Assembly (NCBI GenBank): GCA_029339195.1
Contig: JAPTJF010000023.1
Coordinates: 62,001 to 126,000, forward strand
DNA length: 64,000 bases
From: Micractinium sp. NFX-FRZ
Taxonomy: Eukaryota; Chlorophyta; Trebouxiophyceae; Chlorellales; Chlorellaceae
Direction of reading: 5' to 3'
Shown: positions 38,677 through 43,040 of the stretch, in pieces
Layout: each line of letters opens with the position of its first letter
How positions within the stretch are numbered: the stretch's first letter is position 1
Notes under the pieces: model-generated
Databases searched by the model: none
What the model was told of the DNA's origin: nothing
What the model saw: only the letters and a program-made list of their open reading frames with translations
Translations under genes and position numbers: made by a program

Positions 38677-40592
38677 TCATGCCCCGCTGCCATTGCATGC
38701 CGGCTCCATGCCGGCCCCGCTGCCCTGCTCCGCACCGTCTGCTGCCTCTGCTGCCTCTGCTGCCAGCACGTCTGCCAGGGAGGCCATGTCAGCCATGATG
38801 GCGGCAGCAGAGCGCAGCAGCGGCACCGCCAGCACGGCGCCCGTGCCCTCCCCCAGCCGCAAGCCCATGGCCAGCGCGGGGCGGGCGGCCCCGGCGGCAG
38901 CCGCCGCAGCCGCCGCGCCCGGCTCTGCGCTGGCGTGCGCCCAGAACTGCACGGCAGCTGCACGGGGGTCTGCGCGTGCCGCCGCTGCCGCCGCAACGCC
39001 AGAGATGAAGCCATCCACAAGGGCAGGCATGCCCAGCCGCCCCGCCTCGAGAAACGCCCCTGCCATGGCTGCCAGCTCCAGGCCGCCCACCGCCGCCAGC
39101 GCCGCCAGCGGGTCACGACCAGCCAGCGCGCCGGCGTTGGCTGCCAGAGCTGCCGTCACTGCGTCGCGCTTGCGCTGCAGGCCGGCGTCATCCAGGCCTG
39201 CGGTGGTCAAGGTGCAAGGTGGCCGAGGTTGGCGCATGGGTGCAAGTTGAAGGTGCATTTGCCGTGAGGCAATGAGGGCGACCTGGCTGACGCCTGGAGT
39301 GGCATAGCAAACCAAGGTTCATCATGGCTGCCCTGGCGGCAGGCAGGCAGGCGGGCCAGGCAGGTTTATGTTATCAGGATGGCAGCAGCAGCAGTGCTGG
39401 CGGTCATAGTGCGACCGTGAAACGCGCGGGCGGCACTCACCGGTGCCAGGTCCGCACACATCAGCTGGGGGCAGCCCCGTCATTGCCGCCAGCACCGCGG
39501 CTGCTGCCGTCGTGTTGCCAATGCCCAGCTCGCCCACGCACAGCACGCAGGCGGCGGGGCCGCCGTCGCCGGACGCCCCCGCGGCAGCAGCCGCGCGCTG
39601 CGCCGCGGCGGCGCCCGCCTGCAGCGCCGCCTCTAGCTCTGCTGGCGCCAGCGCTGGGCCGGCCAGCATGCTGTGCGATCCGCGCCGCACGCTGGCGTGC
39701 ACTAGCGCCACGCCGGGGGCGGCTTTGACTGCCGCCACGTCAGCGTCCACCCCCACGTCGACCAGCTCCAGTGCCACGTCATTGGCAGCGCACAGCGTGG
39801 CGCTGGCGGCGCACCCAGCGGCCACGGCGCGGAAGACCGAGGCCGTCAGGGCGCGGGGATAGGCTGACACCCAGGGTGCCTGCCCCTCTTCTGTGATGCC
39901 GTGGTCGGCTGCAAACACCACCAGGCGGGCAGCGGTTACACGAGGGCGCAGCGTGCGCTGCAGCGCACACAGCCGGACGGCCCACTCCTCCAGAAGGCCC
40001 AAGGAGCCTGCACCGGGGTGGCGGCCAGTAACATTGGAAGGTGTGGGTCTCAATGGGTAGGGGAAGTGGCGGCTTGGGGCGAGCGCGAGTGCATTGCGAG
40101 GCGTTGGGCAAGGCAGGCTAGCTGAGGGCTGATGCGCACACGCACGAATGCATTCAAATCTGTTGCCTGTAGTCAGCCACTGAACCGCCACAGATATGTG
40201 CATGATGGGCGGTGTTGACATGCGTGGACTATTGAGAAGGTCATGTGCTGCGGGCACACCTGGGGGTGCGATAGAGAGGCAGGCCGGCAACAAGCAGCTG
40301 GCGACAGGCTGGCTGCAGACAGCAGCAGCGCACCTGGCGGCTTGGCTTTGCCATCCATTGCGCTCTGCGCACGGGCGCGCCACTCGTTGAAGGCGGCATC
40401 CTCCAGTGGTGCTACCATGTTGGGTACAGCTGGAGCACAGCTGCGAGGCAAGCTTCCTGCTGGCTTTCGTAGCCTGGAGGCTGGTGCGGCAAGGCAAGCC
40501 GCTGGCAGCGCCGCCACTGCCGCTGCAATCAAAGCGCTTGGCTGTGGCCGGTGGCAGCTGGAGGGGCACTCCTGCGCTACAATTAAGTCCAA
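38677..40592 (-). CDS. COBT: Nicotinate-nucleotide:dimethylbenzimidazole phosphoribosyltransferase (448 aa, 3 exons)
   Basis: CobT moves the phosphoribosyl group of nicotinate mononucleotide to 5,6-dimethylbenzimidazole, giving alpha-ribazole phosphate, the activated lower ligand of vitamin B12. Exons 40592-40334, 40007-39441 and 39197-38677 total 1347 bases. Hallmarks are KPPGSLGLLEEWA, formed exactly across the first splice junction, then FAADHGITEEG, GELGIGNTTAAAA, CGPGTGLDD across the second junction, AAVGGLELAAMAGAF, LVDGFISGV and LRLGEGTGAVLAVPLLR. The last carries the family's catalytic glutamate region. The N-terminus before VAPLEDAAFNEW (about 58 residues) is Ala/Pro/Arg-rich and may be an organelle-targeting peptide. 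An internal ATG at 40418 would give 391 residues, nearer the bacterial length of about 350. It is head to head with CobS. Confidence 0.93.
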
Positions 40593-40869
40593 CTACGCTG
40601 GAGAAAGCGATGCTCACAGAGTGCAAGCGCGCTTTGGTGCAGGGGAGCGGCAAGGTGCTAAGGCCGTAGTTCTGGGTGGGTGCCGGCCTTGACCACAGCA
40701 AGCTTCAATCCAGGCAAGTAAATTGCAAGCAGCTAAACCGGCTAAACAGGCCAAAACATCACTCCTGGATTGACAAACCGCAGGTACAGGAGACGGAGAT
40801 GAGCAATGCTTGCAGGCAGCCGTCGATCGCCATTGATCGCAATTGTGGATCGGGGCATCGCTGTGAGCT
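40593..40869. promoter_or_regulatory. Shared bidirectional promoter region of CobT and CobS
   Basis: 277 bases separate the two divergent start codons. The region is less GC-rich than its surroundings. An in-frame TGA (40864-40866) just before the CobS ATG supports that start. I see no obvious cobalamin riboswitch fold or B12-box, nor a clear TATA. Co-regulation of the pair is inference from the arrangement. Confidence 0.55.
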
Positions 40870-43040
40870 ATGGCGCCAAACAAGCGGGGCGTCGTGAAGA
40901 ACGACACCGCCGAGCTCGCTGGTGGGCACTGGTGGGAGCAGCGTTGCAGGCTTGCAGCCTTATGGCGCCGCTTAAAAAACATCAGTCAGCGCATGCCAGG
41001 CATGCATGCACCTGCGCGCTCGCCATAGCACCCGCCGCCGCCCCGCCGCCGCCCACTGCCGCCTGCCGCTGCCCACCGCCACTTGTTGTGCTGCAGGCGC
41101 GCCACCCTACGACTATGCAAGCTCGGTGATTACCAAGGAGGAGGTGGAGGCTCGCGGCAGCGGCACCAAGGAGGCGGGGGACACGTATGACAGCAAGCGC
41201 TGGCTGTGGAGCGAGCGGCGCGTCTTTTTCACCGGTGCGCCTCCCAGGGAGTCTGCCTGCAGCAATGCGGTGTGCACGCCAGGTGTTTGCTTTGCTTCAA
41301 GGTTTGCTCTGCGTTGCACCAGCCGATGCAGCTCGAGGCAGTCAAGAGTGCCTTCGAAGTGCCAGCCGCTCCTGGTGGTTGGACCTCCCGTGTCCCCCCT
41401 GCTGTGCTCACATCTGCCCGTCACCCCCTGCCCGCCCCATGCAGGCGCCTCATGTTCCTCACACAACTCCTGCTGGCTCCGTGCACTCGAAATGTAACTG
41501 CTGTATTCGTTGATTTGCTTGAATGCAGGCCTCATGTTCCTCACCCGCCTCCCCGTGCCCGCCAGCATCGACCACCACCCCGCCTTCCTCATCCGATCCA
41601 CCATGTGGTTCCCGCTCATCGGGGCAGCCGTGGGCGCGTGGGGGGCGGCCTGGTACAACGCGGCGGCGCTGCTGTGGCCCGCGCCGCCCGTGCTGGCGGC
41701 TGCGCTCTCCACTCTGTCCACCGTGTGGGTAAGCAAAGTGGTGTAGGGGTGAGTACAACGTTGTTTGACCCTCGCCACAAGGGTGGATCACACTCACCGC
41801 CGTTGTGGCCCGCCCCGCCGCGCCTTTCACCCTGCCCACCCACGCAACGCAGCTCTTCTGCCCACCCTCACCACCCTCCCTTGCCCCTCAGGCCTTGCAC
41901 CTATTTCGTTTCCTCGTTGCATTTCACTTGCAAATCCTGATTATTGTAGCTTCCTATCTGATCCCTAATTGGCTTCCCTCTTTGCCTTCCCGGCCCGGCT
42001 GCCTCCAGCTGTGCGGCTGTTTCCACGAGGACGGGCTGGCCGACACGGTAGACGGCTTTGGCGGCGGGTGGGGCAAGGAGCAGATCCTGCGAATCATGAA
42101 GGACTCTCGAGTGGGCACGTATGCCCTGGTGGGCACCGCCCTGGCCCTGCAAGTCAAGCTGAGCGTGCTGGGCGCGCTGGGCCCCGCTCGCGGCTGCGCC
42201 GCGCTGGTGGCGGCGCACACGGCGGCCCGCTGGACCGCCCTGCCCCTCATCTACTGCTGCACCTACCTGCAAGACGCGGAGGACGCCAAGCGGGGGCTGT
42301 ACAACTGGTGGGCGGGCGGGCGGGGGGTGGAGGGGGGGGCTGGGACGTGGTTGTTGGTGTGTTGGGGTTGCTTGATTGTTGGTGTGTTGAGGTTGCTTGG
42401 CATAATTCGGGCGCCGCCAGCGCCATTTGCTGCCCCTTGTACACGGCAGGCTGCCTGGGATGGGAAGGACTCCGCCGAACGCCGCTGGTCTGTGCCCCTG
42501 GTGCACGCCACCTGCCTGTGTCCCTTGTATCAATCAAACACACTATCACCCCGACCTGATTGCCCTCATCGACTGCTTGCTGCCCCTTCATCACTCCCTA
42601 CCCATCCTTTCCTGCCACCTGCCTCCGCCCCTTCCCATTACACACCCCTCCCCCACAATCCCAATCAACCTCGCCGCAGGATGGCCGCCAGCAAGCGCCT
42701 GCTCACGCCCGCCCGCCTGGCATTCGGCACCGCCAGCACAGCGGCCGTGTTGCTGGCGCTGCTGCCGCTTGGCCAGGCCGCCGCCACCGCCGCAGTCGTG
42801 CTGCTCATCACCGTTGCTTCAGGCTATTACGGCAACCTGGTCATAGGCGGTGTTGTGGGAGATTACCTCGGCGCCACCATCTGTGTGGCAGAGATGGCCA
42901 TCTACTGTGTGCTGGCAGCGGACTGGGGCGCCGTGGCGCAGCGCTGGCAGCCGCTGGCGGTGCTTGCCGCCGTGGCCGCGCTGCCGGTGCTGTACACACG
43001 TCGCGTCATCGGCGGCGGCGGCTCCAGCCCAAAATGCTAG
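40870..43040 (+). CDS. COBS: Cobalamin (5'-phosphate) synthase (349 aa, 5 exons)
   Basis: CobS, an integral membrane enzyme, joins alpha-ribazole (phosphate) to adenosyl-GDP-cobinamide, completing the nucleotide loop of B12. Exons 40870-40921, 41097-41234, 41529-41728, 42009-42307 and 42680-43040 total 1050 bases in frame. Family motifs are GLMFLTRLPVP, WFPLIGAAVGA, CFHEDGLADTVDGFGGGW with the acidic metal-binding cluster, RIMKDSRVGTYA and VVGDYLGAT. Several membrane helices are evident (GTASTAAVLLALLPLG, AAVVLLITVASGYYG, PLAVLAAVAALPVLY). An N-terminal extension of about 80 residues (MAPNKRGVVKNDTAEL...) is absent from bacterial enzymes; it may aid targeting. Intron 2 contains a pseudo-copy of the exon 3 start at 41439-41466. 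Its divergent partner CobT makes this enzyme's substrate. Confidence 0.93.
41439..41550 (+). repeat. Duplicated acceptor plus exon start in the CobS intron
   Basis: ATGCAGGCGCCTCATGTTCC (41439 onward, then TCAC) echoes the true acceptor and exon 3 start, ATGCAGGCCTCATGTTCCTC (41523 onward), 84 bases downstream. The echo has two extra bases (GC), so splicing to it would shift the CobS frame. Confidence 0.85.

Follow-up and report, generated by a model that had tools for sequence, protein, structure and literature searches.

CobT makes alpha-ribazole phosphate, which CobS couples with GDP-cobinamide; this late part of cobalamin (B12) synthesis is established biochemistry, and a membrane complex has been proposed for the late B12 enzymes, CobT and CobS included (PMC8092220; here and below, statements on papers cited by PMC number refer to the portions of their text available to us). 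The genes COBT, COBS and COBC were described in C. reinhardtii and P. lutheri, with another 46 strains as candidates (Helliwell 2016, PMC4850488); their presence correlates with the remodelling of pseudocobalamin, the bacterial origin of the algal genes being left open in the available part of that study. For Chrysochromulina tobin and E. huxleyi, the presence of cobS was pointed out in PMC4580454. Here we describe a head-to-head pair of CobT and CobS genes from Micractinium sp. NFX-FRZ, located in a stretch of 64,000 nucleotides (the window) that is a part of contig C23 of an assembly of 66,065,352 base pairs (bp) in 838 contigs. The families and the proposed function are the same as in the algae described in PMC4850488, the available text of which does not mention gene positions; linkage, divergent order, a fusion protein and family trees are added here.

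Several other described systems invite comparison. According to PMC7733943, the CobS protein of V. cholerae is involved in remodelling, while neither CbiR nor CbiZ occurs in the C. reinhardtii genome or in a P. lutheri transcriptome and, as far as the available text goes, the genes for algal remodelling have not been identified. In vitro data for the Vibrio CobS proposal were said to be lacking in 2021 (PMC8092220). With the subunits of the aerobic cobaltochelatase, also called CobS and CobT, the window proteins share names alone, as they match PF02654 and PF02277, respectively. In bacterial cobT-cobS operons, which may also comprise cobC and cobU, the two genes are neighbours as they are here; however, in bacteria they share a strand and their frames overlap or are closely spaced, whereas the genes in the window lie on opposite strands, diverge over 451 bp and contain introns. 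No report of a eukaryotic CobT-CobS linkage or fusion was found in the available portions of the open-licence PubMed Central literature; thus, while the two families were already known in algae, their linkage, the fusion and the bearing of both on the remodelling mechanism look new.

The CobT and CobS genes of Micractinium

The CobT gene is located on the minus strand (40418-38677, 3 exons, 390 amino acids, aa) and the CobS gene on the plus strand (40870-43040, 5 exons, 349 aa), both models having been rebuilt by splicing. A genome-wide profile search found no matches to PF02277 or PF02654 outside this locus. The preliminary description of this DNA, made from the sequence without database searches, correctly recognized both genes, their divergent arrangement and in-frame splicing across family motifs (KPPG/SLG and CGPGTG/L in CobT, FFTG/LMFLTRLPVP in CobS, with the junction indicated by a slash), and the outer positions that it gave, 38677 and 43040, are the final bases of the two stop codons. 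Its assignment of both genes to nucleotide-loop assembly agrees with the family matches. The distance of 277 bases that it proposed between the starts has to be replaced by 451 bp, since the ATG codons are at 40418 and 40870, and the start of CobS (MAPNKRG) is backed by MAPN[KR]RG at residue 1 in 22 homologues of the best 120. The region between the starts (40419-40869) is presumably a divergent promoter region shared by both genes. If the genome encodes 9,000-12,000 genes, which is an assumption, the chance for two given genes to be neighbours is ~2e-4, and to be divergent neighbours ~5e-5.

The product of the CobT gene matches PF02277 (152.7 and 137.1 bits against a curated cut-off of 22.6) in exons 2 (39441-40007) and 3 (38677-39197), the latter of which carries the LGEGTG motif and the stop codon, while exon 1 (40334-40418) provides the start codon and an N-terminus similar in length to that of Micractinium CobT. 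The protein exhibits the motifs KPPGSLG, GELGIGNTT and LGEGTG, and in the LGEG motif the residues L332, G333 and E334 are invariant in 16 aligned rows and likewise in 25 eukaryotic rows; the glutamate of this motif is catalytic in CobT enzymes. The closest named homologue among the matches listed (best 120 of 6274) is CobT from Micractinium conductrix, with 77% identity. In P0123, a related CobT record, an insert sits exactly at the site of intron 2 and resembles intron read-through, and the unusual N-terminus would fit a read-through at the site of intron 1; we read both as signs that the positions of the CobT introns may be conserved.

Two other CobT records have unusual architectures. P0260 (701 aa, longest contig 3202 bp) is a eukaryotic-type CobT with a ~300-residue N-terminal extension beginning with MGAGAS and a hydrophobic C-terminal tail; PF02277 is its sole Pfam match, and it may be a membrane-tethered CobT. 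P0230 (565 aa, longest contig 75738 bp) has a histidine phosphatase domain (PF00300) ahead of CobT in one protein and is possibly a CobC-CobT fusion.

The CobS protein matches PF02654 (85.5 and 26.9 bits against a curated cut-off of 23.2), with the matches in exons 3 (41529-41728) and 4 (42009-42307). Exon 1 (40870-40921), with the MAPNKRG start, is defined by the splice model and the N-termini of homologues, exon 2 (41097-41234) by the splice model and aligned homologues, and exon 5 (42680-43040), which ends with the stop codon, by the splice model and its motif. Both loop motifs that matter for the Salmonella enzyme according to its mutants (PMC8092220) are retained, i.e. HxDxxxDxxD (HEDGLADTVD at 136, exon 4) and GxxGDxxG (GVVGDYLG at 287, exon 5). 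The sequence contains hydrophobic stretches, and the AlphaFold2 model of P0001, a protein 91% identical to the window CobS, is confident and all-helical (pLDDT 88.0, pTM 0.87, 44 sequences), so that CobS is predicted to be a polytopic helical protein that would reside in a membrane. Comparison of this model with a set of solved folds did not reveal a clear relative among them. The eukaryotic CobS rows shown carry residues similar to SVITKEEVEARGxGT after the conserved MAPN[KR]RG start, and the bacterial rows lack this extension.

The gene to the left of CobT ends in the segment 37787-38122 (plus strand), which gives a rubredoxin-like match below the threshold (17.9 of 26.5 bits); its C-terminal segment is hydrophobic.

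Linkage, fusion and bacterial relatives

Linkage in other organisms was assessed by comparing the size of the longest contig behind each protein record, for 78 CobS and 61 CobT records treated as eukaryotic (28 of the latter by rank or name, without placement in the tree); the homologue lists behind the comparisons comprised the best 120 of 2116, the best 120 of 6274 and the best 120 of 6022. Exactly equal sizes, an indirect sign of linkage, were found 6 times, whereas 400 shifted offsets gave 0.52 on average and 3 at most; above 10 kb, sizes were equal 4 times, with an average of 0.005 at the shifted offsets. The pairs come from the brown alga Discosporangium mesarthrocarpum (P0044 and P0273, 15,828 bp), Raphidocelis subcapitata (P0016 and P0132, 796,354 bp) and Astrephomene gubernaculifera (P0003 and P0141, 11,134,900 bp), with two more known by their records only (P0018 and P0124, 24,818 bp; P0111 and P0255, 3,654 bp); the sixth pair (2,715 bp) was not used as evidence. 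In the record Tetstr1, which we read as Tetraselmis striata, CobS and CobT bear consecutive identifiers (TSEL_015782 and TSEL_015783). Taking the window together with five named or labelled organisms, the genes are on the same contig or consecutively numbered in 5 of 6, the exception being Gonium, and for three of them (the window, Tetraselmis and Discosporangium) the data point to close linkage. The CobT-CobS pairing is real and, judging by these comparisons, probably conserved in part of the eukaryotes.

In P0277 the two enzymes form one polypeptide. This record (714 aa, one member, one 36,684 bp contig, source label jgi) comprises full-length PF02277 (residues 21-384) followed by full-length PF02654 (residues 432-672). 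The first residues of its CobS half, KKDEIDARGSGT, are a variant of the eukaryotic KEEVEARGSGT, and in the trees each half is placed within the corresponding eukaryotic clade, with a long branch for the CobT half.

Trees built from hand-picked rows recover the eukaryotic CobS sequences as one clade (20 of 49 rows, support 100/100), and likewise the eukaryotic CobT sequences (22 of 52 rows, support 99/96). Wider quick trees, from which 1 of 80 bacterial CobS rows and 3 of 70 CobT rows were dropped as falling below the length limits, concur, with 0 bacterial loci among the 86 and 31 rows spanning the named eukaryotes. Both families are bacterial at the root. Together with the introns, all six of which are of the GT-AG type (175-372 bp), the eukaryotic clades bear out the earlier proposal that the genes are eukaryotic and nuclear and do not stem from contamination. 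Contamination, or a very recent bacterial insertion, would agree with the bacterial roots of both families, but it is hardly credible given these introns, the high support of the clades and the bacterial gene order described below.

Among the best 80 of at least 522 confirmed bacterial cobS loci, 70 have cobT beside cobS on the same strand and none of these has the two genes head to head; in these 70 loci the CobT frame ends ahead of the end of the CobS frame, overlapping it or lying no more than 230 bases away, while in the other 10 CobT was not found within the stretch covered. Such a prevalent neighbourhood makes an origin from an operon plausible. The fusion P0277 keeps the bacterial order, CobT and then CobS, and the window pair departs from it; descent from an operon, with an inversion at a later stage, fits this pattern. 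The CobS and CobT distances over ten paired records are correlated (r 0.84, with 5 of 5000 permutations as high; without the fusion r 0.81, with 1 of 5000 as high), although shared species history alone would produce such a correlation and each of the small trees has one starred branch.

Other B12-related genes and the proposed reactions

Profile searches of the genome were carried out exon by exon, so that a strongly split gene could escape them. The B12-dependent methionine synthase METH, methylmalonyl-CoA mutase (MCM) and cobalamin adenosyltransferase gave matches; MCM has been reported in Chlorella and Tetraselmis (PMC11439496). The B12-independent METE is represented by pieces, with an intact gene unproven: positions 8-126 of 313 of PF08267 were matched, pieces spanning 1 to 289 of 324 of PF01717 were identified, one of them with an internal TAG, and additional METE-like pieces are visible by eye in the frames. 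Thus, of the genes that the preliminary description proposed to search for, METH and METE yielded matches, while CobU was not matched and no CobC was singled out. The matches to the CobC and BluB models are all far below the cut-offs. The weak CobC-model matches are at C121:24459-24584, C6:302653-302841 and C652:22096-22350; the open reading frames at the C6 and C652 sites pass the PF00300 cut-off, and any of the three could be the missing phosphatase.

We propose that the window carries a functional nuclear CobT-CobS pair which allows the alga to change the lower ligand of B12, and assign to this reading a probability of about 0.65. CobT would convert dimethylbenzimidazole (DMB) and nicotinate mononucleotide to alpha-ribazole phosphate, CobS, as a membrane protein, would join it to a corrinoid, a histidine phosphatase would then strip the 5' phosphate, and the finished cofactor would be used by METH and MCM. 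The genes, which are operon neighbours in bacteria, were probably acquired from there and may have been transferred as one operon; cooperation between the enzymes would have kept them linked in several algal lineages, and in one record fused into one protein. By the same reasoning the window pair would be co-regulated, and Micractinium sp. NFX-FRZ would remodel pseudocobalamin.

As to the mechanism, the exon-by-exon search found no recognizable maker of GDP-cobinamide in the genome and neither of the established openers CbiZ and CbiB, and together with the Vibrio precedent this favours an exchange driven by CobS, with CobT as a coupled partner. Lower-ligand exchange by CobS itself, as proposed for the Vibrio cholerae enzyme, fits best, although it is unproven; by analogy, the algal gene set would make sense if CobS could remodel without CbiZ. 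Remodelling by CobS of Vibrio cholerae is reportedly the subject of Ma et al. 2020, and remodelling in Chlamydomonas, judging by the title, that of Baum et al. 2020. Going further, and tentatively, we suggest that CobT and CobS could be a physically coupled two-enzyme machine, in which CobS might act in reverse with GMP on pseudocobalamin to release GDP-cobinamide and then forward with alpha-ribazole phosphate supplied by CobT, dispensing with CobU, CbiB, CbiZ and CbiR; it would have entered the eukaryotes as a bacterial operon and been kept since as linked genes or as a fusion protein.

A number of observations weigh against the functional pair and the conserved linkage. CobT narrowly misses the cut-off of the NCBIfam equivalog TIGR03160 (311 of 319.3 bits, E 1e-92) and is also below that of NF000996 (305.4 of 306 bits), which lowers the claim only slightly because the NCBIfam models were built for prokaryotes; CobS is clearly below its equivalogs (best NF001277, 187.5 of 273 bits; TIGR00317, 83 of 110 bits). 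Scattered positions in close relatives had been named beforehand as evidence of an accidental pairing, and such scattering is indeed present in Gonium, with CobT and CobS on two separate scaffolds, whereas the remaining algae accessible to this check do not show it; in Astrephomene, the genes are numbered 77 and 26, which does not point to adjacency. Equal contig size is indirect evidence, gene orientation having been read in the window only; the pairs without an organism label are biased, as short contigs can be counted only when the genes are linked; and the fusion is a single record on a single contig. The trees give no common nearest bacterial group for the two proteins: two Bacteroidota records are included in that of CobT (97/97), and CobS joins, weakly supported (54/25), a group with a Gemmatimonadota record, so that a single donor is not shown. 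The presence of METE makes it probable that B12 is not essential for the alga. Finally, in the exon-by-exon search, which covered neither CbiR nor archaeal CobY, CobU (0 candidates), CbiZ and CbiB had no match in the genome, which leaves the supply of GDP-cobinamide unexplained and the known remodelling routes incomplete; bacterial remodelling through CbiZ or CbiR has a like outcome, the replacement of the lower ligand (PMC7733943), yet CbiZ is unmatched here. The earlier term 'remodelling cluster' is not supported as worded: the pairing stands, but the pair alone makes up no complete known route, and remodelling is inferred.

Alternative explanations and biological meaning

The strongest competitor is ordinary salvage, in which an unrecognized guanylyltransferase or a missed CobU makes GDP-cobinamide and CobS performs the standard attachment without any exchange. 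The standard reaction of CobS is firmly documented (PMC8092220) and a strongly split CobU gene could have escaped the search; on the other hand, the same method recovered five Pfam families from four other B12-related enzymes while yielding no CobU candidate, and the 2016 study likewise failed to find cbiZ and cbiB in its algal genomes, as far as its available text goes (PMC4850488). We regard salvage as a serious possibility, at less than even odds. It is unlikely that the two genes are functional but neighbours by accident, their adjacency being meaningless: the split in Gonium, the probable non-adjacency in Astrephomene and the orientation read in a single locus would agree with it, but the equal contig sizes are well above chance, the Tetraselmis identifiers are consecutive and the fusion P0277 exists. 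Lastly, the CobT-like protein could activate another base or serve another reaction, in which case the link to DMB would be wrong. The relatives of CobT ArsA and ArsB act on other substrates, their chains also match the window CobT, and its NCBIfam cut-off is narrowly missed; however, among solved structures the best match is to the CobT enzymes, far better than to ArsA (E 2.6e-57 vs 5.3e-36), and a CobS gene adjoins, which makes this alternative very improbable.

The apparent linkage of CobT and CobS in green and brown algae, together with a natural fusion, names two likely core parts of the remodelling system and hints at an operon origin. That the genes seem to be linked, or even fused, in algae only distantly related to one another suggests an old working partnership. 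The pair is also relevant to the membrane complex proposed for the late B12 enzymes (PMC8092220) and to the question of which algae can live on pseudocobalamin supplied by cyanobacteria. The two-enzyme machine, if true, would supply the explanation still missing for B12 remodelling in algae.

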